64,000 nucleotides of DNA from Halogeometricum limi. GTDB lineage: Archaea > Halobacteriota > Halobacteria > Halobacteriales > Haloferacaceae. Both the position numbers and the translations under genes were made by a program. The DNA lies in contig NZ_FOYS01000003.1 of assembly GCF_900115785.1 (NCBI RefSeq), positions 434,001-498,000 on the forward strand, given 5' to 3'. The notes beneath the pieces are model-generated. The model ran no database searches. It worked only from the letters and a program-made list of their open reading frames with translations, and was not told the DNA's origin. How positions within the stretch are numbered: position 1 is the stretch's first letter; each line of letters opens with the position of its first letter. Below are positions 5,599 to 23,145 of this stretch, piece after piece.

Positions 5599-5616
5599 AC
5601 ACACTGGTGTCGAGTC

Positions 5617-5630
5617 AGAGATATATACCC
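5617..5630 (-). promoter_or_regulatory. TATA box of the GHKL-DUF3883 gene
   Basis: The leftward strand reads GGGTATATATCTCT here, centred about 26 bases before the ATG at 5598. This predicts a leaderless transcript and decides the start codon, because the longer reading frame would begin upstream of the promoter. Confidence 0.7.
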
Positions 5631-5699
5631 TAGGGGAAGTGATGCTGGGAGAATGGCACAAGATCAGAACTCCCCGAATTCAATAATCCTGAGATCTGC

Positions 5700-7376
5700 T
5701 TAGCAAATCAGGAGAAACAGCCAGAATGGAAGATAACAGATTCTTGTTTCGCCTCTCTGAGTAACGAGTGACTCGCTTTCGGCGACGCTCTTTGGGAGAC
5801 TGTCGGTGATGACGAACCGGTACGGCGCTTGGTAGTCTAATTCTCGGAGATCTTCGCTGTCGGATTGGGTATGTTGGCCGGAGTCGGGATCAAAGTCTTC
5901 GGCGATTGTTTCGGCATTGCCAGTGTGCGGGTGGTACGAGAGGATGAAGGGGAGAAGGTTTCCGTTGCGGTGAAGGATGTAGTCAACGAGGCCGGATTCG
6001 GTTTCTGTGTATTCGACATCGTATGCTCCGACGGTGTATGCGAGGCGTTTGGCGTGGTCGAAGGCGACAGTGCGGGCGAGTTTGTACTCGAACTCGTGGT
6101 TGAGCGTGTCTTGCTGTTCGTAGCCTTCGAAGCCGTGGTGTTCCTGTCGTTGGGAGAGGAGGACGAGGTGGCGTGGGTTGCGAAGGTACAATCGGGTGCG
6201 GCGGTAGCGTCGCAGGGAGTAGTCCTGAGATTCGGTGACGGCGATCCCTTCGTCAAGCACGTCGAGATAGCTATCAACGGTTCGTCTGTCGACACCGATC
6301 TGGTCACTTAGGGCTGTGTACTTGAGTTCCTCACCGGCGTTAGTTGCTGCGATGGAACTGAGCCGGTGGAGATTTTCGGGTTGTTGGATGGATCGGTACT
6401 TGGCGAGCTCTTTGTAGAGGAAGAGGAGGAAGTGTGATTTGGAGAGTTCGTTTCGGATCGTTGGGTCGTCTGTCTGGTGGAGAGTGCCGCCTGTGCGCAG
6501 GTATGCGCGCGCGGCGTCGTGTAGGTTGTCGCGGTCGTCCGCGTCGAAAATGTCGAAGCAGAGTTCTGAAAGTGTCTCAACTGCAGTGTCGAGACTGGTT
6601 TCGGAATCTCTTCCGGAGAGCCCCGTTCGAATCGTCTTGATCGGCGAGGGTCCGTCTAAGTCGGGTGATTGGTACTGTTCGAGTCTGGTTCGGAATTCGT
6701 CATCGAAATCGACGCCGAGTCCCTCGCCGATTTGAACGGTGTCGATGAATTTCATCGGGAGAATCGGCCATAATTCGAATTCTTCGATGATGTCGGCGGA
6801 TTCTGTAGCGGAGAGATCGACTTGAGATGCGACGATGCCGGTCAGGATTAGGTACGTATCCTCGTCGACGGCGTCGAGTAGCTGTGCTTTCCGATCCTCG
6901 TCGAGGTCAAGGGCTTGGACATCGTCGAGCAGGATGAACTTTTGTCCTTGACGAGGTGCGACGTGCGTCTGGAAGTAGTCGATGACCTGGTTGAGGCGTT
7001 TGATGTCGTCGCCTTCGCGTTCGAGTTGGTATAGGGAGTCCTCTAAGGGGATGTAGAGTATTTGTCGCGGTCCGATTGCGGAGGTGAGTTCGAGTTCTGT
7101 GTTTTGGTTCGGGAAGTCTGTCGTGTTGAGGAGCGCTGCGACGAGTTGGTGGAGAAGAGTAGTTTTGCCGATGCCGGTCTGGCCGTGAATTGCGTAGACG
7201 AGGCTGTCGACGCCGTCAGTGTAGTGGGTGTTCGCCGTTTTGAGAACGCGGTGGAAATCAGATCGGGGGGTAAGGTCTGTGGCTTGCGATAGTTCTGGAG
7301 AGGTACCGTCACCCCACCACTGGTTATGCTGCTCGGCGTCGTCGATGAACTCTTCTGCACTCCCTGTCCCAAGCAT
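5700..7376 (-). CDS. AAA-type ATPase of the archaeal AAA/DUF4143-like class
   Basis: The 558-residue protein has a Walker A motif GQTGIGKTT (65-73) and a Walker B FILLDD (147-152), followed by an ATPase lid. A central winged-helix-like segment includes DRRTVDSYLDVLDEG. The C-terminal part, with the VDYILHR segment, resembles the restriction-endonuclease-like tail of AAA_14/DUF4143 ATPases, but no intact D-ExK set is obvious. The end is unusually hydrophobic (FWLFLLIC), so the last residues may be recent. Its TATA-like AATATTT at about 7400-7408 lies roughly 29 bases before the ATG. It is the first gene of the leftward pair, 101 bases before the GHKL gene's own promoter region. I infer a regulator or motor partner of that protein in defence. 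Confidence 0.75.
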   Translation of the reverse strand: MLGTGSAEEFIDDAEQHNQWWGDGTSPELSQATDLTPRSDFHRVLKTANTHYTDGVDSLVYAIHGQTGIGKTTLLHQLVAALLNTTDFPNQNTELELTSAIGPRQILYIPLEDSLYQLEREGDDIKRLNQVIDYFQTHVAPRQGQKFILLDDVQALDLDEDRKAQLLDAVDEDTYLILTGIVASQVDLSATESADIIEEFELWPILPMKFIDTVQIGEGLGVDFDDEFRTRLEQYQSPDLDGPSPIKTIRTGLSGRDSETSLDTAVETLSELCFDIFDADDRDNLHDAARAYLRTGGTLHQTDDPTIRNELSKSHFLLFLYKELAKYRSIQQPENLHRLSSIAATNAGEELKYTALSDQIGVDRRTVDSYLDVLDEGIAVTESQDYSLRRYRRTRLYLRNPRHLVLLSQRQEHHGFEGYEQQDTLNHEFEYKLARTVAFDHAKRLAYTVGAYDVEYTETESGLVDYILHRNGNLLPFILSYHPHTGNAETIAEDFDPDSGQHTQSDSEDLRELDYQAPYRFVITDSLPKSVAESESLVTQRGETRICYLPFWLFLLIC

Positions 7377-7634: not shown

Positions 7635-10313
7635 ATGGCAGTCAAGGCCGATATCGAGGATGGGGAAGAGATCGACATCGAGCTGCGCGTCACGGGGATT
7701 GACGAGTGGGAGCATGATGCCATCGCTCGGAAAATCCAGCTGGAGGACATCGACGGCGCGGCGGTAGATCTGACAGTGTTTCACAACAACGACGTCGCGG
7801 ACTTCGAATGGCAGATCGGGGAGTGGTGTCTCCTAGAGAACGTCGTCGGGAACGAGTTTCGGGGCGAGATGCAACTCAACCCGGGGTACGACCTTACCGT
7901 CACGCTACTAGACGACCCTCCGGCCGCTGCCAGGAGCAATAATTCGACCGGTAGTGAACTCTCGGAAAAGCCAGTCGACCAGTCAGGGGAGAGTGGTGCT
8001 GCCGCGTCGGCATCGGATGAACCCAGTGACGAAGAGTTCGTTCGCGGAAGCGAGGTCGATGGTAGTTCGCGGCCGACGGCTGATGGTGGCGGCGAGCTCC
8101 TGCATCAACAGCCGCTCTCGGACGGGAACTACTTGCTGCAGTTCGAACTCGGGTCGTTGCCGGAGCTACCGGTTCACGAGTACGAACTCCGGGCGACCGG
8201 GAGCGGCGGAATCGACCCTGATGATTTCACGAACGGGATTGAGGGGTTCACGGCGAAAGCGGCGAACTACTACCAGTCACGAATCCAGAGTCCCGTGACG
8301 ACGGCTGACGCGTCCCGTCGGCGTATCTACGCGACCGAGAAGCTCCACGGTACGATCTCGATTCACGGGTACACTGTCAAGCCGGTCCATCAGGGCGAGA
8401 AGACGCTGGAAGCGCGCTCGTACACGAACGACGGCCCGCTTCAGGAGTTCGTCAAGCAAGACGTGAAACGAGCCGTTACTGGTCGCTTCGAGGTGTCCGG
8501 GATCGACTCGATCATCGAGCCCACCCCGCAGCGGACCGCGAACAGCGGGTTGTTCGAAGCCTATCGGAAGTACAAGTGCCGGATTCGCGTCGATGCTGAC
8601 GGGACCGTGATTTGCGGTGTAAACGTCGCATACCATCTCGAATCGACGTTCTCCGCTGCCGACTGGGTGCAACGCGGATACGACATCGCCGGTGTGACCG
8701 TCGAGCACGACACGGACCTGTACGACAGTGCGCGCACGGCGACGGTCACGGAGATCATCGACATGGACTACGATGATATGCTGGACGGGCCAGGCGTCCC
8801 GATGTCGGAGTACCACGAGAAACACGTCGAACAGGACGTCATCGACTCGATGCGGGCCGGGGATCCAGTCATTGCTAACCTAAAGTACGGGAGCGGCGAG
8901 GATTCGATCTTCCCGCAGCTCCTGGAGTACTGTAAGGTCATCCCGACGTTCGACCAGTTGGGCCGCGTCGATGAAACGTTCCTGAACGTCATCCACAACG
9001 AGAGCCGGATGAAACCCGAGGAGCGGTTCAACGTCGTCACGTCGTTCGTCGACCTGCTCGGCCCGACGCCGTACTTCGGCTTCGACCCGGTCCCGCAGCC
9101 AACAAACGCTGGGTACCGAGAACACAAGACACCGAATATCCCGAACCTGCGGTTCGGTGATGGTCGAACAGGGTACTACGGAGCTGGCGGGCTGGAACGG
9201 AAGGGCTACGGCGTGTACAAGGCTCCAGAGTCGTTCGACATCATCGCGCTGTATCCGGACAGCGAACAAGCCGCAGCACGACCGTACGTCCTTTCAATTC
9301 TCGGCAAGCTCGCGGACTACGACGGAAAGCCGACGAAGTTCGACCAGGAGACCTACGAACTGGGTTCGGAGTTCCACTACTCCCAGCATGCACAGAAGAC
9401 GAGCGACTACGACGCGGCGCTAATCGTCGTCCCTGCTAAGGACAAAGCCGCGGCAGCAGACTACGACGACCCGTATCCCGAGTTTAAGCGCCGACTTGGA
9501 CAACTCGGGGTGCCGAGTCAGATGATCACCATCGACAATCTCGGCAACGACAGCTATCTCGGGAACATCAGCTCGTCTCTAATCGGGAAAGCGGGTGGCG
9601 TGCCATGGCGGATCGACGACGTCCCAGGGGACGTTGACGCGTTCGTCGGCCTCGACGTGACCTACGACCACGCGACAAAGCAACACCTCGGCGCGGCCGC
9701 GAACGTCATCATGGCCGACGGAACCATCCTCGCGTCCGAGGCCGTCACGAAGCAAGCTGGCGAGACGTTCGACGAGGACGACGTAGCGAACGTCATCAAG
9801 CACATTCTAGAAATCTTCGCCGAAGAGGAAGGCCGACCACCGCGGCACGTAGTCATCCATCGTGACGGGAAATTCTACCTCGACATCGAGAGCCTGATCA
9901 AGCGTCTCGACAAGGCTAGGGATCTCATCCAGCGGTTCGACCTCGTCGAGATTCGAAAATCCGGGAACCCCCGCATCGCCGAGTACGACGAATCGAAATC
10001 ACGGTTCGATATCGCGGACAAAGGCGTCGCCTTCCACGTCCACAACGGCAACCACTCCTACCTGACCACGACCGGCGGGAAGGAGGGTAGTCCTGGCACG
10101 CCGCGGCCGCTACAGATCGTGAAACGCCACGGATCGACAGATCTCGACACGCTCGCGGAGCAAACCTACTGGCTGTCGGAGGCACACGTAGGGTCGCTGA
10201 GCCGGTCCACCCGGCTTCCAATCACCACGTACTACGCCGACAAATGCGCCGACTTCGCCATGAAGGGCTACCTCACCAAGGGTAGCGTCATCCGCGGTGT
10301 CCCATACATCTGA
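7635..10313 (+). CDS. Long prokaryotic Argonaute with N-terminal OB-like domain and intact PIWI catalytic residues
   Basis: The 892-residue protein matches the NgAgo-type haloarchaeal Argonautes in length and layout. Residues 1-95 look like an OB-fold (RepA-like) single-strand-DNA-binding domain. Residues 95-160 are a Ser/Asp/Gly-rich linker. N/PAZ-like regions follow to about 530. MID has Y614, K618 and Q629 (YPEFK and GVPSQM), the usual 5'-phosphate guide pocket pattern. PIWI carries D674 (VGLDVTYD), D744 (VIHRDG) and D869 (TYYADK). A glutamate finger candidate lies among E702, E710 and E714, so a DEDD tetrad looks complete. The expected activity is DNA-guided DNA cleavage in the cytoplasm. 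It opens an operon with a PLD-NTPase and an AddAB-like set. That partnership, rather than the Argonaute itself, is the unusual part. Confidence 0.92.
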   Translation: MAVKADIEDGEEIDIELRVTGIDEWEHDAIARKIQLEDIDGAAVDLTVFHNNDVADFEWQIGEWCLLENVVGNEFRGEMQLNPGYDLTVTLLDDPPAAARSNNSTGSELSEKPVDQSGESGAAASASDEPSDEEFVRGSEVDGSSRPTADGGGELLHQQPLSDGNYLLQFELGSLPELPVHEYELRATGSGGIDPDDFTNGIEGFTAKAANYYQSRIQSPVTTADASRRRIYATEKLHGTISIHGYTVKPVHQGEKTLEARSYTNDGPLQEFVKQDVKRAVTGRFEVSGIDSIIEPTPQRTANSGLFEAYRKYKCRIRVDADGTVICGVNVAYHLESTFSAADWVQRGYDIAGVTVEHDTDLYDSARTATVTEIIDMDYDDMLDGPGVPMSEYHEKHVEQDVIDSMRAGDPVIANLKYGSGEDSIFPQLLEYCKVIPTFDQLGRVDETFLNVIHNESRMKPEERFNVVTSFVDLLGPTPYFGFDPVPQPTNAGYREHKTPNIPNLRFGDGRTGYYGAGGLERKGYGVYKAPESFDIIALYPDSEQAAARPYVLSILGKLADYDGKPTKFDQETYELGSEFHYSQHAQKTSDYDAALIVVPAKDKAAAADYDDPYPEFKRRLGQLGVPSQMITIDNLGNDSYLGNISSSLIGKAGGVPWRIDDVPGDVDAFVGLDVTYDHATKQHLGAAANVIMADGTILASEAVTKQAGETFDEDDVANVIKHILEIFAEEEGRPPRHVVIHRDGKFYLDIESLIKRLDKARDLIQRFDLVEIRKSGNPRIAEYDESKSRFDIADKGVAFHVHNGNHSYLTTTGGKEGSPGTPRPLQIVKRHGSTDLDTLAEQTYWLSEAHVGSLSRSTRLPITTYYADKCADFAMKGYLTKGSVIRGVPYI

Positions 10314-10376: not shown

Positions 10377-12497
10377 ATGACCAAGACGGAATTCCAAGCA
10401 ACAGTTGAGTTCGATGATGGCAGCACCGCTGAACTGGAGATGGCTGCCGACAAATCATGGGACAGTTTCCTGAACTACTTCGGTGACGCCCAGCACGTCT
10501 ACTGCGTCACGTACAGTCAGTCCCCGGCGTTCATCTACAAGATGTTTCAGAACCGGGACCTCGCAGTGGACTCATTGGAAGTCATCGTCGGGGACAACCA
10601 GCACGACGACTACCGGCGGTCGCTGAAGAACACGAACAACGCGAAGAAAATCGCCGCGCAACTGGAGTCACTGCGACGAGACGGTGATCTCCGCATCCAC
10701 ACCGTCGATTCTGCGCGCGTCCTCCTCCACACGAAGCTCTACATCGTCGAGAATCAGGACGGGTCTCGCACACTCATCTGTGGGTCGGCGAACCTCTCGA
10801 AGCAGGCATGGCAGGGGAGCAAACAAACCAACGTCAACATGGCCTGGCGTACCGACGGGGACACGCCCGTCGACGAGTGGTTCGAACGGCTCTACGCGTT
10901 CCACAAGGACTACGCGACGCCGTTCATGGAGGACCTCACGGAGGAGATCGAAGACGCCGAAACGGCAGAAGAAGAGGCGAAGATCTACGACATCTGGCTG
11001 GGCGGGGACGAGTTCAGTGACGACCCGGTCGCCGAGCTGAACGCCCGACTCGACGAAGCGGTTGACGACGACCAAGTCAACACGTACAACGTCGTCACCG
11101 ATGCCGAAGAAGCAGAAAAGGCGGTGTTCGCCGCCGAAGATACGGACACCGACCCAACAGAGATTAGTCCGGACAAACGTGTACGCCTCTCCCCGCAGGG
11201 TCTCGAAGACGCCATCTCGAATCTGGACGATACGCTGTCCGCCAATAACATCCGTATCAACGACGGTGAAATCGTAGCGACACCGGCCGGTATCGCACGG
11301 TACAAAGAGACCTTCACCGGATACCCCGACCTCAACGTCGACAAGGACGAGAACACAGTCGGGCTGCGAGTTGATGACTCCGTCCTCGAATTAACGGCTC
11401 CCCTCCCGGATGATCCGCAGGAAGTCGCTGACGCGCTCGACCTGATCGAGCAGTACGTCGAAACGGTCGGTGAGTTCGGTGAAACGCGAACGACGAAGGA
11501 AACGCGGGCACACTTCTACGAGGGAGTTATCTACTTCTGCTGGGCTCCGTTCGCAAACTACTGCGCCCATCACTACGCGGAATACGAATCCGCAGAGCTC
11601 GACAAGGATCTACCGTTCCTGTTCCTTCACGGCGACAACGACAGCGGGAAAGGCATGTTCCTCCGATTCGGGGCGCGACTCATCTCGAACGGGTACGTAC
11701 AGGAAGTCACGACCGGCGACGACTTCATCAAAAACAACATCGAGCGTGCTCGTGCGTCGGACACTGTTTTCCCGTACATCGTTGACGACGTGGCGAAGTC
11801 GAAGATTGACCGGGACATCATCAAATCGTACTGGGAGGGGAAGTGGGACGGCTCCATCCAGATGCCGACGTTCATCTTCTCCTCGAACGACTCGACGAAA
11901 CCGAAATCCGAACTTCGGACCCGCATGAAAACGTTGGATTTCAACGTCAACTTCTCCGAACTGGAGAAGGACGAACGGGAAGCCGCCGCGCAAATCGCTG
12001 GCCAGGCGGACAGCTGTAATCTATTCCCGTGGTTCGCCCACCTGTTCTTGCAGCGGGATATCTCGCTGCCAGACCAGTCGGATCGGCTCGCGGATGCTCG
12101 GGACGTGTTCGCGGAGCTGTACGCGTATGCCGAGAAGGAACCGCCGGAGTACGTGCCGCTGAAGAAACCCGCCGAACAGGAACACGACCCAGGACGACGG
12201 AAGTGGATCAGCGCGCTGTCCGACGGGCTGTGTGAACTCGATTTCAAGGACGACGGGCGTGTTATCGCTGATTTCTCAGCGAACCTGGACCAGCAGCAGT
12301 GTTGGCAGTTCCAGAAGGCTACGCCAGCCCATATTCGGGCGAGTATTTACGGGCCGGCAGTCCAGTTTGAAAGCGCAAACAGATTCAAGAATTGGATAGA
12401 TGAGCCCAGTATCATCGAAGATGCACGACGCGACACCGAAACGGCGGCTGACAACACCGGTGTTCTGTCTCGGGTCACGCGGCTCGTCCGAGGGTAA
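10377..12497 (+). CDS. PLD-family phosphodiesterase fused to a P-loop NTPase
   Basis: The 706-residue protein has two enzymatic halves. The N-terminal half (about 30-185) is a phospholipase-D-type domain: HTKLYIVE (118-125) followed by GSANLS (136-141). This is the HxKx4D/GSxN signature with Glu in place of the Asp. Only one HKD copy is present, so dimerisation would be needed for an active site. The C-terminal half has a Walker A GDNDSGKG (419-426), an acidic Walker B FPYIVDD (465-471), a sensor-like FIFSSND (499-505) and an arginine-rich strand after it. This resembles SF3/AAA-like helicase cores. The linker is acidic. The gene lies 63 bases after the Argonaute and 5 bases before the AddB-like gene. 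A nuclease or effector coupled to an NTPase motor is likely; substrate unknown. Confidence 0.75.
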   Translation: MTKTEFQATVEFDDGSTAELEMAADKSWDSFLNYFGDAQHVYCVTYSQSPAFIYKMFQNRDLAVDSLEVIVGDNQHDDYRRSLKNTNNAKKIAAQLESLRRDGDLRIHTVDSARVLLHTKLYIVENQDGSRTLICGSANLSKQAWQGSKQTNVNMAWRTDGDTPVDEWFERLYAFHKDYATPFMEDLTEEIEDAETAEEEAKIYDIWLGGDEFSDDPVAELNARLDEAVDDDQVNTYNVVTDAEEAEKAVFAAEDTDTDPTEISPDKRVRLSPQGLEDAISNLDDTLSANNIRINDGEIVATPAGIARYKETFTGYPDLNVDKDENTVGLRVDDSVLELTAPLPDDPQEVADALDLIEQYVETVGEFGETRTTKETRAHFYEGVIYFCWAPFANYCAHHYAEYESAELDKDLPFLFLHGDNDSGKGMFLRFGARLISNGYVQEVTTGDDFIKNNIERARASDTVFPYIVDDVAKSKIDRDIIKSYWEGKWDGSIQMPTFIFSSNDSTKPKSELRTRMKTLDFNVNFSELEKDEREAAAQIAGQADSCNLFPWFAHLFLQRDISLPDQSDRLADARDVFAELYAYAEKEPPEYVPLKKPAEQEHDPGRRKWISALSDGLCELDFKDDGRVIADFSANLDQQQCWQFQKATPAHIRASIYGPAVQFESANRFKNWIDEPSIIEDARRDTETAADNTGVLSRVTRLVRG

Positions 12498-12502
12498 CAA
12501 CC

Positions 12503-14563
12503 ATGTCTGACCACTCATCTCACCGGCGATTCGACGGGACGCTAGTCACGGCACCGTTCGGGGGCGAAAACGTCGAGCGGACAGCCCGGGACGAATACCG
12601 AACGCTACTCAACGAGTACGATTCTGAGGATGTGCTCGTCATCACGGGTGCGCCGACGAGTACGGACACGTTCCGGGAGACGTTAGGTGAGGAACTTCCG
12701 GGTGCGGCGACACCGTACGTGACGTCGCTCGTCGTGCACGCGACCGATGTCCTCAATCAGACCGATGACCGAGTCATTCTCTCCGACGCGCTACGCCGAG
12801 AACTCCTCCACCGATTCCTCGCCGACTACGAGTGGGACACAGAGTACCTCCAGCGAGCGTCTGAACAACCTTCGTTCATTGAAGATGTGGACGCCGTGAT
12901 GGGAACGATCTCCTGGCAGACGGTCATGCCCGAGGAAACCCCGGAACTCCGTGATATAACGGCTGCGCTCGACGCGTTCCACGAGTGGCTGGCCGAGTAC
13001 GGCCACATGGAACGCGGCCAACTCATCTCGGAAGCACTCGATGTCCTCACCGGGGATGCCCGTGACGACGTCGTCGATTTCGAGGCGGTGCTCGCAGTCG
13101 AGTTTGAGGAGTTCTTTCCGCTCGACCGCGCGTATCTCGACGCGCTCGCAGGGGACTGTGAGCTCGTCTGTATCGCCGAAAAGAATGCGAGTGTGCGCCG
13201 CACGTGGGTCGAAACAGGGCCCGTTACGGACTATGTCACGTTCAGCGAGGCTCGCCGCGGGGCGTCAGAGACGCCGTCAACGCGACCAGCTGCCACAGCA
13301 ACGTATTTTGCCAAAGAAACGGTCCCGGCAGACCCAGAAACGGGATCGGTGTCCGTCCTCGCTGCAGACTCCAGTGACGAACAACTCGCCGAGATTGCAA
13401 ACGAGATTGAGGAACTCGTCGCGCAGCCGGATTGGAACTACGACGACATCGCTGTCGCCACGAAACAAAGTGGGAGTTCGGTTACGGACGCAATTGAGGC
13501 GTTCGAGCGTGCCGGCATCCCGACGGAATCGACAACAGTCACTGGTTTCGGAGACGATCCTGCGATCCGGGAACTCCTCGCTGCCGTGCGGTATCTCGCT
13601 GCCGACGACAAGGACGAGCTGCCTGAACACGGCCCGGATCTTGATACGGAGCGCTTAGACCGCGTCCGGGAGATGGACAGCCTCGAAGATGGGATTCGCT
13701 GGTGGGCGACAGACGCAGGGTTGAAAGAGCGGATTGCGGAGCGCGCGACCCCGCTGAACGCACGGGCACAGTTCGGAAATGTCAAGCGGGCGTTCCGGAT
13801 GACCGCGTTTCTCGAAGAGACTGAGTTTGTGGATGCGACGTGGAGGTCCTTCGAGGAGATGCTCGAACGCGCCCACGAGTACGCACCGCAACAAAACCAG
13901 ACCAGTGCAACGAACCTTGACGGCGGTGTTCGCGTGGACCACCTGCAGGCGATCAAGAACGAGTCGTTCCGCGCGGTGTTTCTCGTGAATCTCGTCGATA
14001 GTGAGTACCCTGGTGACCCGTTCCTGACTCGATTGTTCCCGACCGAGCGGGTCGCATCGATGCGGGACTACCCTGGTGTCACGGACCTCGACGAGCCGGA
14101 CGTGGATGCGACGTTCCCGACGCTGTCCACGGCGTCGAGTCGGCCGTTCGCTCGGTATCACACGGAGCACGCCCGGCGACGCCTGGCGATTGGGGCTGGC
14201 GCTGCTGACGAGCACCTGTACTGTTGTCTCTACGAGTACGAGGACACCGCACTGGAAGAGCGTGCGCAGGCATCGCGGTTCCTCACAGACGCGTACGACA
14301 CCCTGCCGTGGGTCACTGAATCCGACGATCCACACATCACGAGCGAGCAAGCGGCGGAGGATTTCCTGTTATCGCGGGTTGACGACGCGCTCGCCGCGGT
14401 GCGCCGCGCGAACAGTCAGGACGTGACGGTGTCGCTCGACGAGGTAGAAGCGGAACTCGGCGAGATTCAGGACCTGCTCGACAAGAGCGGTACGCGTGGC
14501 GAGGAGCTCCGGAAGGCGTTGCGTGCACGTGTCGAGTTTGCTACCGGGGAGGTGCGACGATGA
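12503..14563 (+). CDS. AddB-like inactivated helicase subunit, without nuclease domain
   Basis: The 686-residue protein has the layout of the helicase half of AddB/RexB. It has an N-terminal RecA-like fold with no recognisable Walker A lysine (APFGGENVERT stands at the expected place). A UvrD-like second RecA domain follows from about residue 280 (VSVLAADSSDEQ, YDDIAVATKQ). The late motif AIKNESFRAVFLVNLVDSEYPG is typical of UvrD/AddB motif V-VI regions. It stops where AddB would continue into its Fe-S nuclease domain, and the next gene, overlapping by 4 bases (ATGA), encodes just such a nuclease. I infer that the two together rebuild a full AddB, acting as scaffold and end-recognition subunit for the AddA-like helicase. 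This assignment rests on fold pattern, not strong motif matches. Confidence 0.7.
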   Translation: MSDHSSHRRFDGTLVTAPFGGENVERTARDEYRTLLNEYDSEDVLVITGAPTSTDTFRETLGEELPGAATPYVTSLVVHATDVLNQTDDRVILSDALRRELLHRFLADYEWDTEYLQRASEQPSFIEDVDAVMGTISWQTVMPEETPELRDITAALDAFHEWLAEYGHMERGQLISEALDVLTGDARDDVVDFEAVLAVEFEEFFPLDRAYLDALAGDCELVCIAEKNASVRRTWVETGPVTDYVTFSEARRGASETPSTRPAATATYFAKETVPADPETGSVSVLAADSSDEQLAEIANEIEELVAQPDWNYDDIAVATKQSGSSVTDAIEAFERAGIPTESTTVTGFGDDPAIRELLAAVRYLAADDKDELPEHGPDLDTERLDRVREMDSLEDGIRWWATDAGLKERIAERATPLNARAQFGNVKRAFRMTAFLEETEFVDATWRSFEEMLERAHEYAPQQNQTSATNLDGGVRVDHLQAIKNESFRAVFLVNLVDSEYPGDPFLTRLFPTERVASMRDYPGVTDLDEPDVDATFPTLSTASSRPFARYHTEHARRRLAIGAGAADEHLYCCLYEYEDTALEERAQASRFLTDAYDTLPWVTESDDPHITSEQAAEDFLLSRVDDALAAVRRANSQDVTVSLDEVEAELGEIQDLLDKSGTRGEELRKALRARVEFATGEVRR

Positions 14564-15465
14564 GCCAAGAGTCGCTCTCACCGTCGCGGCTGGCGAACTA
14601 CGCGACGTGCCCGCGGCTGTACGATTATCGGTACGTACAGGACGTGAACGCGCCGGATCGCACCGAACTCTACCTCAACCAAGGGACGATCTACCACGAG
14701 ACTATTGAGGACGTGTGTGAGGCGACCAACCGTGGCGACGCTCCGGAGGTGATTCACGAGCGGGCGATGCGGATCTTCGATGCGAAATGGGGCGAACACA
14801 GTACTCCGGACGACTACGAATCTGCTGCGCATCAAGAGTACCAGCGTGCTGAGAATCGGGCTGCCATCGAGTCGTTCTTCGCTCCCGATGGCGGCGTCGG
14901 TATCGACCACGCCCGCCGCTCAATCGCCACCGAGTGCTGGGTAGAGTGCGAGGTAGACGGGCGGGGGCTTCACGGGAAAGCAGACAACGTCATCCGAACG
15001 GACGACGGCCTCCACATCTTCGACTACAAACGGAAAACACACGGAATGCTCTCCGACGGGACAGCCGAATACCTTGGCGACCACCTCGACGGGGAGGCGC
15101 ACGAGCCGAAGCGCGTGCGGAACGCGTTCCAGACAGCGGCGTACATCGAGGGCGTGAAGAACGAACCGTTCTACGAGGACGGAATGGAGGTCCGGTTCAG
15201 TTTCTACGGCCTCCTCAATAGCACGTCGTTCGAGAGCACGGCTGACGGCTACGACGTATCTGCACGTGGATGGGGGCGGGAAACCACTGAGATCTACGAA
15301 GACCACTATGACACGATATGGGCGCTCATTCGCGCCGCACACGACGGCATTACGGGCGAGAACTACGGACCGGAACCGTTTGAGCTCATCAGCGAGAAAG
15401 CGTGCCCGGACTGTGACTATCGAGAGATGTGTGCTGACCGGCTGTCGACGGAGGTGCGACGATGA
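14560..15465 (+). CDS. Cas4/RecB-like PD-(D/E)XK nuclease with Fe-S cluster cysteines
   Basis: The 301-residue protein shows every landmark of the Cas4/AddB nuclease class. C17 (TCPRLYDY) and the trio C282, C285, C291 (CPDCDYREMC) can bind a 4Fe-4S cluster. H46 (IYHETIE), D142 (GKADN), D155 and K157 (FDYKRK) and Q191 (FQTAAY) form the RecB-family active site. It overlaps the AddB-like gene by 4 bases and the AddA-like gene by 4 bases, so translation is probably coupled and the three products likely form one complex. There is no cas1, cas2 or CRISPR array in the window, so CRISPR adaptation is not its role here. It is expected to trim or cleave DNA strands, possibly generating guides for the Argonaute. 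Confidence 0.88.
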   Translation: MSQESLSPSRLANYATCPRLYDYRYVQDVNAPDRTELYLNQGTIYHETIEDVCEATNRGDAPEVIHERAMRIFDAKWGEHSTPDDYESAAHQEYQRAENRAAIESFFAPDGGVGIDHARRSIATECWVECEVDGRGLHGKADNVIRTDDGLHIFDYKRKTHGMLSDGTAEYLGDHLDGEAHEPKRVRNAFQTAAYIEGVKNEPFYEDGMEVRFSFYGLLNSTSFESTADGYDVSARGWGRETTEIYEDHYDTIWALIRAAHDGITGENYGPEPFELISEKACPDCDYREMCADRLSTEVRR

Positions 15466-18400
15466 GCGGTGACAGTGACGCCTACCCGTCTTGGTTCCCG
15501 GTTCCGGAGGAAGATGTGTCACCGGAGCCCCAGCAAGAGACGATCATCGACGCCGACGCGTACCCGATGCGGGTGCTCGCTGGAGCAGGGACGGGGAAGA
15601 CGTTCACGATGGTCCGGAAGGTGGAGCACCTCATCGACGAGGAGAACGTGTCCCCGGACCGGATTCTTGCGTTGACGTTCACGAACAACGCTGCGGACTC
15701 GATGCGTGAGAAACTCAACGCAAAGCTCGGCGCGGCCGGGTACGACATCGACGCGTACACGTACCACTCGATCTGTAACGAGATTCTCACCGACTACGCG
15801 TACGACGCCGGAATCGATCCGGACTTCGAGGTTGCCACGGACGCCGAAAAGTACGCCATCGTACTGGACGTCCTGGACGACATCAAGTACCGGTCGGTGA
15901 AACCCAACGTGTACGGGGGCGACGGGTACGCGTCAGGAGCCGCATCGAAGTTGCTCAACTTCATCGGGTCGATGAAGCGCAGCGGCATCACGCCCGACGA
16001 CATCGACGCCTTCCTCGGCTCTGCGGACCGCGTCTACGAACTCGCTGACCTTTCGGAGCGTGTCGAGGCGATTGCAAGCGATCATCTGGGCGGCCGGTCC
16101 GTGTCGAGCGTACTGAACTCGCTTCCAGACGTGCGTGCCGACCTCGTTGAGGAACGTGACGCGCTGGGGACGGACGGAATGGAGGCCAGTGCACGCGACT
16201 TCCTCGACCGCTTGGTGGATCTTTGCGATGCGCTGGAAGCGGCGTTCGAAGCCCACGAGGCAGGCGAGCGAGAGCTGCCGGACAACGCGTACAAGCTCCC
16301 GAAGTACCTACTCGGCGGGTACGCGAGCGGTGCGCCGAAGGGCATCCCGGATAGTCTCGACCTCGAACTCACGGATCATCTCGACTCGTTCCTCTCGGAC
16401 TGTCTCACGGCCCGTGACCTGACGGCCGGATACGCCGCGTACGAGCGTGAACTCGACGGGCGGAATCTCATCGACTTCGACGGCCTCGTTGTGGAGACAG
16501 CCGCGCTGATGGAGTCGCCGGTCGGTGAAGAAATCGCTGCCCGATGGGACTACGTGTTCTGTGACGAGTTTCAGGACACCGACCGCCTGCAGTTCGACCT
16601 CGTCACGTCACTCGTCACTGACGACAACCTGTTCGTCGTGGGTGACGACGATCAGGCGATCTACGAGTGGCGCGGCGCGCACGTCGCCAACATCACTGAT
16701 GAACTCGACCGCGCATTCGCGGCACTCACTGACGAACCCTTAGAGGAGAATTTCCGCTCCCGGCAGCCGATCCTCGACCTGGCGAACGAGGCGATCCAGA
16801 AACTCGACCACCGTGAACGTCACAAGACACTGAAGCGCGTCGACGAACCCGAGTACGACGGGGATACTATCGCTACCGTCGAACTGCCGGACGAGGACGA
16901 TGCAGACGGTGCTGCCCAGCTTCGCACCGTCGTCCAGAATCTGCTGAGCGGTGCCGCTGAGAGTCTCGATGAGGCGTACGACCCGGGCGACATCGCGTTA
17001 CTCGTCCGGAAGAACGACCACGCGACACCCGTCATCGAGGAATTCGAAGACGCCGGGATTCCGTACCAGGTTGCTGGCGATCTGGCCACGGAATCCGTCG
17101 GCGTCGGTACCGTAACAGCCTACCTGAAGGCACTCGCGCGGCCGGACGACGAGGTCAGTTGGAATCGTGTCCTCCTGATGCGGTACCGTTTGTGCGACAA
17201 AGACCTCCGCACGCTCAACGCGGGCGATGACTCGCTCGTGGACACGCTCCGCGAGACACCGCTCGACGAGTTCGAGGAGCCTGACCGCGTCGCGGAGGCC
17301 CGTAAGCACGTCACGGAACTCCTCGACATCCGGGATTCAGCGTCGCTCAGTCACCTGTACCGCGAGCTCACAGACGTCACGAATATCGAGTGGTATCTCA
17401 GCGAGCAGGAACGCCGGGACCTCGCCCAGCTGGAGGACATCATCGAACAGTACGGAGATAGCACTGTTCAACCACCGCTCACCCCGGAGTTCATCGACTC
17501 GCTCGAACACTACGACTCCCTGTTCGACGAGAGCGGTTCTTCCCCGACGAGTCAGCCGGATGTTGCCGATGACGCGGTCAACGTGATGACCGTCCACAAG
17601 AGTAAGGGCCTGGACTTCCCGGTCGTCCTCATCCCGCAAGTTACGGCCGACGAGTGGTCACCGAGCTCACGAACCTACGATGCGCTCGAAACCAGCCTCT
17701 CGGACGGCGCAGAAGCGGCGTTCGCCGAGGACTTCGTCGAGCGTGACGCCCGTGAAACACGTCGTGTGTTCCACGTCGGGATCACGCGCGCCGAAGACGT
17801 CCTCGTCCTCCAAGGCGGCACCGAGGGCGACGACGATACTGCGGACGTACACCCGGTTTCAGAGGCGGTTGACGAGATACTGCCATCTCGAATCCCGTGG
17901 CAGCCAGAGCGAGGACAACTCCCGATCTGGACCGACGTGCTGGAATGCCTCCCGGATAACGCCGTAGACTGGACAGACACGCTTGCCAGCGGGACCGTCG
18001 GGAACATTGGTGGGACCGTCAATCACGACGGCGAAGAACTCACCGTCGAGGCAGCGCGCGACCGCGTGTTAGCCCTCGCAACAGCCAGCCTCAGCGGCGA
18101 TCTCTCTCCGAGAACCGAGCGGGGGACACTCCAAGTTGCGTCGCTGACCGGCCCGTCAACGCCGTCACCGTCGCTCTCGCACAGCTACACTTCCCTGGCA
18201 GCCTACGAGGAATGCCCGCGGAGTCACTACCTGGACTACGTGGTCAACGCGTTCCCTGACTATCAGGACACCATAGGCACGAGCGGTGCTGGGGACGGTG
18301 TCTCACAACGCGAAATCGGGTTGTTGTTCCACGACACTGCAGAGCAAGCCGCAAAGCAAGATGCGGAACGCCGTGAGCAGTGGTACGGAATCTGCGAGCG

Positions 18401-18923
18401 ACTCGCCAGTCACCGCCGCGCTGCGGACGCGCTCCCAGGGGCGATACAGTGCATCGACCGGTACTTCGAGTTAGATCTTCCCAGCTACGAGATTGTTGAC
18501 GCGGAGCGGGAGTTCGAACTCGACATCGATGGACACGAACTCGTCGGCTACATTGACGCTGTCTACCGGACGCCAGACGATGAGCTGGTCGTCATTGACT
18601 ACAAGGCGACCGAACGCCACCGCGATTTGGAGGACGACAAGCAACTCCCAATCTACTTGTTAGCATGTCGTGACCTGTACGACGACCCAGTGATGCGTGC
18701 TGGGTACGCGTACGTCGGCGAAATCGGGCCGAAGGTTGAAACGCGAACGTTCAGTGGCAGTGATCTGCAAGCGGTCAGGGACGACGTGACGACGTCGATG
18801 ACTCGCATTGCCGAGTTCTCGTTCGGACGGTACACTGCTGGTGAGCACTGTCAGTGGTGCCAACACAACCAACTAGCCTGCGCGCCGGACTCGTTCACTG
18901 TCGGTCCAGGGTTCGAGGAGTGA
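15462..18923 (+). CDS. AddA-like UvrD/SF1A helicase with C-terminal Fe-S PD-(D/E)XK nuclease
   Basis: The 1,153-residue protein has a full set of SF1A helicase motifs: a Q motif near QQETI (24-28), Walker A AGAGTGKT (40-47), DEFQD (368-372), GDDDQAIYEWRGA (394-406) and MTVHKSKGLDFP further on, with an arginine-containing VGITRAEDV segment. The last about 220 residues are a RecB-type nuclease: CPRSHYLDY, a LLFHDTAE histidine, a GYIDAVY aspartate, VIDYKA, and a final CQWCQHNQLAC cysteine group for an Fe-S cluster. This is the composition of AddA, although the family also includes UvrD-Cas4 fusions. As last gene of the Argonaute operon, joined by a 4-base overlap, it probably supplies unwinding and strand degradation at DNA ends. 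Confidence 0.88.
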   Translation: MSGDSDAYPSWFPVPEEDVSPEPQQETIIDADAYPMRVLAGAGTGKTFTMVRKVEHLIDEENVSPDRILALTFTNNAADSMREKLNAKLGAAGYDIDAYTYHSICNEILTDYAYDAGIDPDFEVATDAEKYAIVLDVLDDIKYRSVKPNVYGGDGYASGAASKLLNFIGSMKRSGITPDDIDAFLGSADRVYELADLSERVEAIASDHLGGRSVSSVLNSLPDVRADLVEERDALGTDGMEASARDFLDRLVDLCDALEAAFEAHEAGERELPDNAYKLPKYLLGGYASGAPKGIPDSLDLELTDHLDSFLSDCLTARDLTAGYAAYERELDGRNLIDFDGLVVETAALMESPVGEEIAARWDYVFCDEFQDTDRLQFDLVTSLVTDDNLFVVGDDDQAIYEWRGAHVANITDELDRAFAALTDEPLEENFRSRQPILDLANEAIQKLDHRERHKTLKRVDEPEYDGDTIATVELPDEDDADGAAQLRTVVQNLLSGAAESLDEAYDPGDIALLVRKNDHATPVIEEFEDAGIPYQVAGDLATESVGVGTVTAYLKALARPDDEVSWNRVLLMRYRLCDKDLRTLNAGDDSLVDTLRETPLDEFEEPDRVAEARKHVTELLDIRDSASLSHLYRELTDVTNIEWYLSEQERRDLAQLEDIIEQYGDSTVQPPLTPEFIDSLEHYDSLFDESGSSPTSQPDVADDAVNVMTVHKSKGLDFPVVLIPQVTADEWSPSSRTYDALETSLSDGAEAAFAEDFVERDARETRRVFHVGITRAEDVLVLQGGTEGDDDTADVHPVSEAVDEILPSRIPWQPERGQLPIWTDVLECLPDNAVDWTDTLASGTVGNIGGTVNHDGEELTVEAARDRVLALATASLSGDLSPRTERGTLQVASLTGPSTPSPSLSHSYTSLAAYEECPRSHYLDYVVNAFPDYQDTIGTSGAGDGVSQREIGLLFHDTAEQAAKQDAERREQWYGICERLASHRRAADALPGAIQCIDRYFELDLPSYEIVDAEREFELDIDGHELVGYIDAVYRTPDDELVVIDYKATERHRDLEDDKQLPIYLLACRDLYDDPVMRAGYAYVGEIGPKVETRTFSGSDLQAVRDDVTTSMTRIAEFSFGRYTAGEHCQWCQHNQLACAPDSFTVGPGFEE

Positions 18924-19352: not shown

Positions 19353-19667
19353 ATGAAACGCGTCATCGACCGGAAACTGTACGACACGGACCGAGCCGAA
19401 GAAATTGCCCAGCATACCCCAAACAGGGATCGAGGTGACTTCTACTACCTCATCGAAACGCTATACAAGACCTCAAGCGGGGAGTATTTCCTCCACGGTG
19501 AGGGCGGTGCGGCGACCAAATACGCCAAGGCGTGTAGCGGGGGCGGCACGACTGGCGGTGCGGAGATCGAAGCTCTCGACGAGGAAACAGCGCTGGACTG
19601 GTGCGAAGAACACAGCATCGACGGTGAGATCGTCGTCGATGAATTCGATCATCTGATCGAAACGTAG
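19353..19667 (+). CDS. Small conserved protein of mobile elements, function unknown
   Basis: The 104-residue protein begins MKRVIDRKLYDTDRAEEIA and contains GEYFLHGEGGAATKYA and a Gly/Thr-rich turn, ending in acidic EIVVDEFDHLIE. I recognise this pattern (K-x-YDTDTA... FLYGEGGAxTKYA) from short proteins seen on plasmids, phages and integrative elements of bacteria and archaea, but no activity is known to me. It has its own leaderless promoter and precedes the DNA methylase by 74 bases. A hairpin of CCACTC/GAGTGG lies between them near 19690-19707. A regulatory or antirestriction role would be speculation. Confidence 0.65.
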   Translation: MKRVIDRKLYDTDRAEEIAQHTPNRDRGDFYYLIETLYKTSSGEYFLHGEGGAATKYAKACSGGGTTGGAEIEALDEETALDWCEEHSIDGEIVVDEFDHLIET

Positions 19668-19741: not shown

Positions 19742-22189
19742 ATGATAGACCCAGAAGTCAACAGACTCCACCGTCGAGGAGCGAGTTCCAACGCTCGTGC
19801 CTATACGTCGACACCCAGCCCGTCCCTGGTTACGAGCGGCGGGACAGATCACTCACCGGTCACCCCAGTGGGAGTAGAAGCGCGTCACAACGAACAGATC
19901 AACGCCGTCATCCGGCAACTCACGACTGACGGCCACGACATTCCGTCGCCGTTCTCGAAGAGGGAACTGTACCGTACTGCTGCCAGCGAAGGGTTTGAAG
20001 TGTGGAAGCCAGCGGTGAAGGACCGGTTCACCGACCGTGTGCTTGACCGACTCAACTACAAGTGGGATTCAGTCTCCCAAACATTCACTCCCGTCGTCAC
20101 GCAGGAACTCACCGAGGATATTCGAAATGCGGCGGGGACAATCACTCCTGCGTTCGACACTGGCCTGTCGGCATCACTTCGCAAGCAAGTTGACAAGTGG
20201 TGTGATTTGCATGCTTTCGATTCGTTCGCAACTGGTGCGGCACAGCGAACTGTTGCGCGCCACGGCGTCCTAAGTGTACTCTTGAAGGCGGTGCTCTACG
20301 AATGGTATCAGCGTCGCGGCGTCGTTGACCCCCTCTCAGATGCAGAACCACAAGCGTTCCAAAACGCGCATGAACGGACAAATGACGTAGCGTTCGATAC
20401 GTTTGTTCTCGATCACATTGCAGAGCTAGCTGATAGGGACGAACTGGCATCCGTGGTTGCTCACCGGGACCGGTTGCTCTACTCCACCCGACCAGCTGAA
20501 GACATTGGGCGAATCTACGCAGCACTCACGCCAAACGAGTACCGACAGTCACTCGGCCAGTTCCGGACCCCACCCGAAATCGCAGAGACGATGCATTCCT
20601 GGGCTGGCCGGGATGGGGGTCATCTCCTTGATCCGGGGATGGGGGCAGGTGTCCTGTCGAGCCCGTACCATCCACGTTGGGAGCTGAACACTGGTCCAGC
20701 GCACGTCGATGGGGTTGATCGCAGTTACCTCTCACGGCTCATGGGTGCTACCGCGTTAACCCTCTCCGGGCAGTCAAATACACCACACGCACGTGACTTC
20801 CTCAATCTTGAGCCGGACGACCTGCAACGTGACATCGGGGGGATCGTCTGCAATCCGCCTTACACGAGTGGCGATGCGCTGCCCAAAGAATACAAAGACC
20901 AGATGAACGCGAGGCTGGAGGAAACGACTGGGATTGACATCAGCGCTCGATCAGCGCTCTATACGTACTTCCTGTACCACTCTCGGTCGTTTTTGTCTTC
21001 AGGTGACCATGCAGCATACCTCACACCGGATAGCTTCCTCACGACTGAGTATGGAACACAGCTCAAGCAGTTCCTGCTGGATGAGTTCGCACTCAACGCG
21101 CTCGTGCAATTCGATCCTGAAGGAGAATCGGTCTTTGAGGACGCTCAGGTCACTGCCCTCATCAGCTTCGTAGAAGCGACCACTGACGATCCGGACGGAG
21201 TCACGCGCTTCATTCGCGTGGACGAGTCTATTGATTCGAGTGCGCTTCGTGAAGCAGTTCAACATGGTGACGAGGGCGAGACAGACTGGGGATTCATCAA
21301 TCACGTCCAGCAACAAGCGCTCTCACCGGACCGGAATTGGGCTTCGCTGTTCAATCCATGTGACGTCGATACATCCGGACTGACGCCGCTTGATGAACTC
21401 GTTACCATCCACCGCGGGAAGTCAACCGGGGACGTAGACCTCTTCTGCCTGACCCAGGATGATGTTGATGAGTACGGCATCCCCGAGCAAGACCTCGCCC
21501 GGCTCATCCGCCAGCCAAAACTCGTCAACGGATATGACTTCCGCGACGAGGACTGGGAGAGCTTACGAACTGCTGGAGAGGAAGTGTGGCTCTTAGACCC
21601 CGATGAACTACCTGCTGTCCGAGAGTCACAGTGGGAATTCAATAAGCAATTCCACTACGACGCAGATTCGTTGCCACGGAACAGCGCCGGTGAGGTCACA
21701 AGCACCGTGTCATATCTGCGGGACGGCGTACGCAAATGCGGAACAGCGGGGGCGAACGTACTCAAAACCCGTCCCTACTGGTATCGCCCCCGTCGACAAG
21801 CCTCGCCTCGGGTGTTGGTCCAAGACGCAGGCAGGGACGAATTCACCTTCGTGCTCAACGAGACGACAGCGAGGAACATCCACAACTTCCGCGGATTCTA
21901 CGACGTGCCCCTCGACGAAACTGAACTGAAAGCGTTGCTCGCATACTTGAATAGTCCCATTGGACAGCAAGTGATTCAAACACAGACCCAGACGCAGCAG
22001 GGCGGCTACGAGAAGCTCAGCATCAGCGCGCTCAAAACACTCCCCGTTATCGACCCGAGATCAATCGATGGGTCACTCGTAGAGACTCTCGCAGGACTGT
22101 TTGACGAACTACGTGAAACTGCCAGAGAGAGCGGAGACCGTGAGGTGGTCTTGAATCGTCTCAACAGTGTGGTTCGGCAGGTGCTGTGA
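19742..22189 (+). CDS. N6-adenine DNA methyltransferase with C-terminal target-recognition region
   Basis: The 815-residue protein has the class gamma N6-adenine methylase motifs: motif X GQFRTPPEIA (272-281), the SAM-binding HLLDPGMGAG (294-303), and the catalytic NPPY (371-374). The last about 300 residues resemble a TaqI/Eco57I-type specificity domain (for example GYDFRDEDWE). The N-terminal 250 residues are helical and show no PD-(D/E)XK nuclease motif. It is therefore a modification enzyme without its own cutter, and no separate restriction nuclease lies next to it. It may protect the island or the host from the neighbouring defence nucleases. The start is uncertain: the first 45 residues are low in complexity and a later GTG could be used. 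Confidence 0.85.
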   Translation: MIDPEVNRLHRRGASSNARAYTSTPSPSLVTSGGTDHSPVTPVGVEARHNEQINAVIRQLTTDGHDIPSPFSKRELYRTAASEGFEVWKPAVKDRFTDRVLDRLNYKWDSVSQTFTPVVTQELTEDIRNAAGTITPAFDTGLSASLRKQVDKWCDLHAFDSFATGAAQRTVARHGVLSVLLKAVLYEWYQRRGVVDPLSDAEPQAFQNAHERTNDVAFDTFVLDHIAELADRDELASVVAHRDRLLYSTRPAEDIGRIYAALTPNEYRQSLGQFRTPPEIAETMHSWAGRDGGHLLDPGMGAGVLSSPYHPRWELNTGPAHVDGVDRSYLSRLMGATALTLSGQSNTPHARDFLNLEPDDLQRDIGGIVCNPPYTSGDALPKEYKDQMNARLEETTGIDISARSALYTYFLYHSRSFLSSGDHAAYLTPDSFLTTEYGTQLKQFLLDEFALNALVQFDPEGESVFEDAQVTALISFVEATTDDPDGVTRFIRVDESIDSSALREAVQHGDEGETDWGFINHVQQQALSPDRNWASLFNPCDVDTSGLTPLDELVTIHRGKSTGDVDLFCLTQDDVDEYGIPEQDLARLIRQPKLVNGYDFRDEDWESLRTAGEEVWLLDPDELPAVRESQWEFNKQFHYDADSLPRNSAGEVTSTVSYLRDGVRKCGTAGANVLKTRPYWYRPRRQASPRVLVQDAGRDEFTFVLNETTARNIHNFRGFYDVPLDETELKALLAYLNSPIGQQVIQTQTQTQQGGYEKLSISALKTLPVIDPRSIDGSLVETLAGLFDELRETARESGDREVVLNRLNSVVRQVL

Positions 22190-22690: not shown

Positions 22691-23145
22691 TGGTTTCAAC
22701 AAAGATTGAGGAGCGGTTAGGAGTGTACAAGTCGATTTCAGAGGTGCCGACTGAGTACCGTCTGGAGTCGTTTGCCGCCGGCATCGAAGGCCAAGACGTC
22801 TGGTCGGAGTGGAACGAGATCCATTCTGATTCCAAGTGGAAGCGTGCGGAGGCACGTCGCGTCAAGGACCGGTGGAACGACCATCTCGAAAGTACGGGGA
22901 GGCACTACGCATTGGCAACGCCGGAAGACGTGGAGTCGTTCGTCGCTGGACTCCTCGACGAGGTTCAGCTTGAACGGGCGTACAAGCCGTACTGGTTGTT
23001 CCTTAAGCGGTTCTATCACTGGCTTGTTTGGCACACCGAGTACCCGCACAGATATAATCCAGTACTGATGGCTTCGGCCAACTATCCGGCGTGCGGTGAA
23101 GTCTGGGACTACGTTATGTCATTCGACAGAGATTCATTCAAATGA
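22690..23145 (+). CDS. Integrase core-binding-like protein without catalytic domain
   Basis: The 151-residue product starts at a GTG that overlaps the preceding TAG by one base, and it overlaps the integrase start by 4 bases. It is rich in Trp and aromatic residues and contains FYHWLVWHTEYPHRYNP. That resembles the helical SAM-like core-binding domain at the N terminus of haloarchaeal integrases. No tyrosine recombinase catalytic residues are present. A role as accessory DNA-binding partner of the integrase is inferred from resemblance and tight coupling. It might alternatively be a remnant of a second integrase. Confidence 0.65.
   Translation: MVSTKIEERLGVYKSISEVPTEYRLESFAAGIEGQDVWSEWNEIHSDSKWKRAEARRVKDRWNDHLESTGRHYALATPEDVESFVAGLLDEVQLERAYKPYWLFLKRFYHWLVWHTEYPHRYNPVLMASANYPACGEVWDYVMSFDRDSFK

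Follow-up and report, generated by a model that had tools for sequence, protein, structure and literature searches.

The 64,000-nucleotide stretch of the Halogeometricum limi genome analysed here (contig NZ_FOYS01000003.1, positions 434,001 to 498,000; hereafter the window) carries three consecutive genes, B, N and A, that may well encode a haloarchaeal DNA-end helicase-nuclease of the AddAB type in which the AddB subunit is divided between two polypeptides. Their layout is as follows (SF1, superfamily 1; aa, amino acids):

12503..14563, + strand: B, 686 aa, similar to the N-terminal part of AddB; predicted SF1 helicase-like fold lacking Walker A
14560..14563, + strand: ATGA in which the stop of B and the start of N overlap
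14560..15465, + strand: N, separate four-cysteine PD-(D/E)XK nuclease, 301 aa (PF12705, 1.3e-22)
15462..15465, + strand: ATGA in which the stop of N and the start of A overlap
15462..18923, + strand: A, 1153 aa, AddA-like SF1A helicase that carries a four-cysteine nuclease of its own at the C terminus (UvrD N, 2.3e-59; UvrD_C, 1.5e-29; PDDEXK_1 (PF12705), 7.3e-24)

Both B and N are open over these coordinates, with no internal stop. As had been predicted from the sequence alone, the 686-aa protein stops before a nuclease domain (its sole Pfam match is a weak one to UvrD_C, 8e-4) and overlaps the next gene by four bases (ATGA), and the residues named for the 301-aa four-cysteine nuclease, C17, H46, D142, D155, K157, C282 and C291, are all present. 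Together with C285 they are invariant in 34/34 aligned rows, consisting of the window and 33 further loci (L021 was omitted, being near-identical to L020). In public records B is called “DNA helicase UvrD” or a hypothetical protein, N a “PD-(D/E)XK nuclease family protein” and A an “ATP-dependent DNA helicase”.

The arrangement is widespread in haloarchaea. When B was used to scan genome contigs, 34 loci from many genera were recovered, some of them interrupted by contig ends, and the order B-N-A was found in 34/34; it also occurs in 100/100 haloarchaeal regions, a collection that shares species with the first and is not independent of it. The B profile matches 140 of 391 haloarchaeal genomes, representing 51 of 86 genera, and the 100 regions are part of the matches listed (45 close copies and 55 divergent ones). 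The B/N junction is ATGA in 27 of the 34 loci, GTGA in three, CTGA in three and GTAA in one; the N/A junction is ATGA in all 34. No fused B-N copy of haloarchaea was found among the 34 loci or the 100 regions.

Relationship of B, N and A to AddAB

The aligned Walker A stretch of B contains no GK[ST] in any of the sequences compared (101/101), and the loss of motor motifs is described as a hallmark of AddB and RecC (PMC4824097). In hhalign comparisons the B profile aligns with the N-terminal part of AddB over columns 31-630 (98.8%). When B and N are joined, they are collinear with the whole unsplit AddB of methanogens over 872 columns, 31-1033 against 10-1027 of 1038 (99.6%); the score is 209 for B+N, compared with 142 for B alone and 65 for N alone, and with 183 for B+N against UvrD-Cas4 fusions. 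Similarly, A matches methanogen AddA over its full length with a score of 632 (100%), against 550 with UvrD-Cas4. An AddA-like gene follows N in 100/100 regions, and the A residues C918, H957, D1032, D1046, K1048, Q1061, Y1065, C1130, C1133 and C1140 are invariant in 30 rows. Viral contigs were also scanned with a broad B profile, and none of the 57 stretches obtained was a relative.

The original prediction had further proposed that N could be an independently recruited Cas4. The hallmarks of the Cas4 type, four cysteines and RecB motifs, are indeed present in N. However, N scores 36.6 bits with the curated Cas4 model, short of the cut-off of 65, aligns with haloarchaeal Cas4 over 83 columns only, and is separated from Cas4 in a nuclease tree with 87% support in the approximate likelihood-ratio test (SH-aLRT). 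In this tree, built by a quick method from 83 rows and 259 columns, every group forms one clade, and the order among groups is without resolution and carries a long-branch warning; catalytically dead N (see below), L173 and L181 (AddA) were omitted, 27 A nucleases were taken from 47 representatives, and five reverse-oriented loci out of 19 Cas4 loci were dropped. A sequence search of the PDB with a close N profile returned nothing at E values up to 0.1, and a broad N profile gave unrelated chains only (best E 0.18). The predicted structure of N (pLDDT 60, pTM 0.60) has four AddAB entries as its best Foldseek matches, none of them under E 0.001, and in VIA it is nearest to AdnA (Z 9.0), followed by AddB (Z 8.1), ACE1 (Z 7.9) and CRISPR Cas4 entries (5-6), where a Z near 8 is only moderately telling. 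Because the modelled fold of N lies closer to the nucleases of AdnA and AddB than to Cas4, recruitment of a Cas4 is unsupported.

The other half of that proposal, that B and N are two halves of AddB, stands up better: B+N is collinear with unsplit AddB, the Walker A is lost, the modelled N is AdnA/AddB-like and an AddA-like gene lies next to it. The reading of B+N as an AddB in two pieces has good but not final support from these sequence comparisons. The set resembles AddAB, both of the Bacillus type and in the unsplit form of methanogens, in combining a motor-dead B subunit of predicted SF1 type, an iron-sulphur (Fe-S) nuclease and an active SF1A A subunit with a nuclease, all encoded by adjacent genes, whereas it differs in having the B subunit in two polypeptides, an A nuclease that is also four-cysteine, and scores far under the curated addA and addB cut-offs. 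Mycobacterial AdnAB, a machine with two four-cysteine nucleases, provides the best fold match of N in AdnA, which unlike B+N is one polypeptide.

Unsplit AddB proteins of 1018-1141 aa, with cluster cysteines, lie beside AddA in 11 of 20 non-haloarchaeal regions of the same phylum (L174-L182, L185 and L186; two were confirmed as AddB by NCBIfam, and 10 of the 11 loci were used for AddA). The assumption that all non-haloarchaeal matches of 1019-1096 aa were unsplit AddB was rejected in part, 11 of the 20 being true AddB. The other nine regions hold a single UvrD-Cas4-type protein (seven, L167-L173) or a 921-aa UvrD-like protein (two, L183 and L184). The proteins of L167-L172 are lone UvrD-Cas4-type proteins of methanogen-side genomes, and those of L167-L170 are without Walker A by pattern after trimming, perhaps a start-site artefact.

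How the split arose is evenly balanced between fission of a fused AddB in haloarchaea, which is plausible, and an ancestral separate state that became fused in other lineages. Fission is favoured by the presence of unsplit AddB with AddA in methanogens of the same phylum and by the collinearity of B+N with these proteins. However, the nuclease tree leaves the order of N, the AddB C-terminal domain, the A nuclease and UvrD-Cas4 open, and since neither the 34 loci nor the 100 regions include a fused haloarchaeal copy, there is no intermediate to indicate a direction.

Several results weigh against the AddAB reading. All three proteins fall far under the curated addB, cas4 and addA cut-offs, with 17.7 bits over 60 residues for B in NCBIfam addB_Gpos (cut-off 903.7; methanogen AddB proteins likewise fall under the addB cut-off, at 72.6 and 61.4) and 122 and 121.6 bits for A in addA_Gpos (cut-off 707.65) and addA_alphas (cut-off 860.75). 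A carries cluster cysteines that are absent from methanogen AddA. The predicted model of B, from 34 close relatives, was not used (pLDDT 46, pTM 0.26), and that of N is of middling quality. Moreover, B alone resembles UvrD and PcrA as well as AddB: a profile of 47 diverse representatives matches UvrD1 (1.8e-9), AddB (2.2e-8) and PcrA (3.9e-7) in the PDB, and scores 146 against the helicase part of UvrD-Cas4, compared with 142 against the N-terminal part of AddB in hhalign. A better similarity of the 686-aa protein to a family other than AddB, the outcome the original prediction had named as adverse, is therefore nearly what is seen for B by itself, and it is for B+N that AddB is favoured.

These similarities could also mean that haloarchaea assembled the set independently, with no connection to AddAB, from a degenerate UvrD-like protein (B), a Cas4-like nuclease that stands alone (N) and a fusion of the UvrD-Cas4 type (A). 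The four-cysteine nuclease of A is as in UvrD-Cas4, PcrA is the top NCBIfam match of A, and both UvrD-Cas4 fusions and unfused uvrD-cas4 operons, which join a UvrD-like helicase with a four-cysteine PF12705 nuclease in defence contexts, are on record (PMC5704561). However, UvrD-Cas4 lacks a motor-dead second subunit, the whole-length profile scores given above favour AddB for B+N and AddA for A, N is far from Cas4, and a B without the motor motif beside an A that has it is how AddAB and RecBC divide their work. We consider an independent assembly rather unlikely, and it is reasonably probable that B, N and A together form a single DNA-end helicase-nuclease of the AddAB type in haloarchaea, with its B subunit in two polypeptides, within which the modelled N would be the counterpart of the C-terminal nuclease domain of AddB. 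A sequencing error, or a split reversed by recoding, can practically be dismissed, for although frameshift errors would likewise give two frames overlapping by four bases, the split is identical in all 34 loci and all 100 regions and N has its own start codon inside the overlap. A programmed frameshift need not be invoked.

Active and dead forms of N

D142, D155 and K157 are kept by N in 55 of the 100 regions, and 53 of these have the complete set of residues, the exceptions being L068, without one cluster cysteine, and L136, with H46 changed. In the other 45 regions N appears dead: H46 and K157 are kept in none (0/45 each) and D155 in two (2/45), and all four cysteines are present in 45/45. 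An independent motif scan of the first 20 divergent loci found D-Y/F-K absent from the chosen N frame in 15 and present in five. The active site of A is intact in 97/100 regions, the remaining three being cut or gapped. The ratio of nonsynonymous to synonymous substitution rates (dN/dS) is 0.16-0.57 for dead N (nine pairs, one with saturated dS) and 0.07-0.18 for intact N (eight pairs). Dead N is thus under purifying selection and is not a decaying gene, with a looser constraint than B and A of the same species. Most dead-N regions (36/45) come from one family, f4, where 109 of 125 genomes carry B.

RecC contains a nuclease-like domain that has lost catalysis (PMC1185551); by analogy, dead N is a RecC-like state, located in a subunit of its own and with the presumed cluster retained. 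Dead-N copies resemble RecBC(D) in pairing a single active helicase-nuclease with a partner in which both motor and nuclease are dead, but their dead nuclease is a separate protein with cluster cysteines, and there is no RecD-like gene in the B-N-A operon. The idea that N is detachable from the complex is a guess; as N is never fused and dead N keeps its cysteines, it appears to be a fixed structural part, at least in dead-N species. With the nuclease lost and the cysteines kept, what the cluster does structurally is set apart from catalysis, and the dead-N branch replays a route by which RecC may have arisen.

In the clade of the window, N and A each show a full Fe-S-type PD-(D/E)XK site at the sequence level. 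AddAB has one SF1A motor, AddA, that unwinds DNA, a dead AddB helicase fold that reads Chi, and two nucleases that destroy one strand each until Chi (PMC4824097). By analogy, A would be the only motor and would unwind the duplex, B would hold and perhaps read the strand, and N would dock on B at the position of the AddB nuclease, so that N and A could cut the two unwound strands. Such a complex would load on double-strand ends and destroy linear duplex DNA. In the sister group, the dead-N complex would depend on A for its only nuclease, much like RecBCD, in which RecB acts next to the dead RecC fold, and probably serves ordinary break repair. The available text of a review on repair in Haloferax volcanii gives end resection by Mre11-Rad50 only, reports HerA-NurA as absent and makes no mention of “AddAB” (PMC7776575); for the species behind the 140 of 391 haloarchaeal genomes with a B match, a complex of the AddAB type would fill the end-resection gap.

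Defence genes beside B-N-A and a possible role in defence

Two further genes precede B in the window, the first encoding a prokaryotic Argonaute (pAgo) and the second a phospholipase D (PLD)-family nuclease with a P-loop (PLD-ATPase):

7635..10313, + strand: long-A pAgo, 892 aa, a recurrent upstream partner outside the core (PADLOC pAgo, E=0, 1083 bits; Pfam Piwi, 3.6e-21)
10377..12497, + strand: PLD-family nuclease with C-terminal P-loop, 706 aa (Pfam PLDc_2, 2.9e-7); HTK at 118 (118-120), GSAN at 136 and Walker A-like GDNDSGK at 419

The five genes pAgo, PLD-ATPase, B, N and A lie on the + strand with spacings of 63 bp, 5 bp, -4 and -4. The PLD stop lies 5 bp before B in 8/8 loci with a full upstream PLD, and pAgo stands directly upstream in 9 of the 34 loci. 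Whole or remnant pAgo/PLD genes adjoin 23 of the 45 close copies (17 upstream, six with a distant PLD downstream) and 0/55 of the others, so that this adjacency is confined to the intact-N clade (p = 1.7e-10, with regions treated as independent, which they are not). A strong pAgo match is present in 18/45 genomes with a close copy versus 18/346 others (p = 9e-10, again treating related genomes as independent), and not all of these 18 are adjacent. Full-length upstream copies of PLD-ATPase share 92-98% identity, in loci whose pAgo, B, N and A mostly share 78-92%. Remnants of PLD or pAgo precede an intact B in L005, L009, L010, L087 and L092; B-N-A persists while the cassette in front of it decays or is replaced. 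Two Halosimplex loci (L033 and L034) have a pAgo, 49-52% identical, located downstream rather than upstream of B-N-A.

Other defence families occupy the same position. Among the PADLOC matches listed, counting one nearest upstream gene per locus in 52 active-N loci, PDC-S01 is found nine times, TmtA three times and LmuB three times, and pAgo, PglZ, HEC-06, ShosA and others occur singly; the PLD protein itself is uncalled at the threshold used. The corresponding matches listed for 45 dead-N loci are limited to single members of methyltransferase-type, mad2 and subtilase families. Single active-N loci have an upstream ResIII helicase, SMC-type ATPases or a GmrSD protein, and that of Natrinema zhouii an exonuclease and AAA ATPase pair. 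From these counts, active-N copies appear to travel with defence genes, and dead-N copies look like settled chromosomal genes. We read the nuclease-active form of B-N-A as one recruited to defence.

On the other hand, B-N-A might be a plain repair complex everywhere, with pAgo, PLD and other defence genes as hitchhikers of defence islands. The frequency of B in f4 genomes, the family that contributes most dead-N regions, is consistent with this, as is the easy loss of the cassette indicated by the remnants. It also agrees with two points against a defence role, namely that neither pAgo nor PLD lies beside 22 of the 45 close copies and that pAgo is absent beside most B-N-A copies. The constant 5-bp gap between PLD and B and the limitation of pAgo/PLD adjacency to the intact-N clade argue against it, and we hold hitchhiking throughout to be possible but not probable.

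Recruitment of the active form to defence can be given a tentative mechanism. In the window, pAgo and PLD-ATPase would be the first to cut invader DNA, and B-N-A, encoded with them, would degrade from the ends so made. It may also yield short fragments usable as guides, as RecBCD does for foreign pAgos in E. coli, where CbAgo depends on the host RecBCD to degrade cut DNA (PMC10164581). The position of B-N-A behind an Argonaute gene suggests that it shreds DNA cut by Argonaute. In Synechococcus, the effects of a Cas4-like protein and of UvrD go the same way as that of pAgo (PMC10653904). A more speculative generalization, which we put forward with low confidence, is that active-N B-N-A is a general DNA-destroying effector on interchangeable defence front ends (pAgo with PLD-ATPase, SMC/Mre11-like pairs, TmtA, PDC-S01 and BREX-like genes), which with pAgo would also make guides; dead-N B-N-A would be a chromosomal end-resection enzyme, the state of N setting destruction versus repair. 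As pAgo appears to bring its own RecBCD-type enzyme in one co-oriented gene set, the link is testable in a natural system.

The pAgo-PLD part of the window resembles the APAP (pAgo-AgaP) system, in which a haloarchaeal long-A pAgo adjoins a PLD gene, but the PLD protein has 15 residues between HxK and GSxN versus about 49 in AgaP, and a C-terminal P-loop (PMC11442185). The authors of that work saw a helicase gene beside some pAgo-PLD operons, and the available text does not mention “AddA” or “Cas4” (PMC11442185). ACE1, an Argonaute-associated Cas4 family protein by its PDB title (9iac, 9iab), is likewise of the four-cysteine type and Argonaute-linked, whereas N comes with B and A. Thus APAP in haloarchaea and the occurrence of UvrD-Cas4 proteins in defence contexts (PMC5704561) are already known, and what is new is an N without catalytic residues but with four cysteines in 45/100 regions, and intact-N copies among defence genes. 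Searches of open-licence papers, a body of literature that leaves out most subscription articles, revealed no account of a split AddB in archaea, of its association with pAgo-PLD or of the dead-N branch.

Upstream of pAgo and divergent from it, the window encodes an AAA_14/DUF4143 ATPase (5700-7376, - strand; PADLOC PDC-S01, 1.4e-15), homologues of which are also divergent and directly precede B in plasmid-type loci without pAgo (L028, L029 and L031). Downstream of B-N-A are genes for a 104-aa unknown protein (19353-19667) and an 815-aa Eco57I-type methyltransferase (19742-22189), a pair that recurs downstream of B-N-A in L006, L013, L017 and L024. A tyrosine integrase (23142-24242; Phage_integrase, 8.5e-15) lies near a G+C step from 0.54 to 0.67 around 24-26 kb, and the two likely mark the right edge of a mobile island. 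Finally, a 1693-aa protein with a Sacsin-type domain (580-5661, - strand; 2.6e-9) has relatives near the B-N-A genes of L004, L023 and L027.

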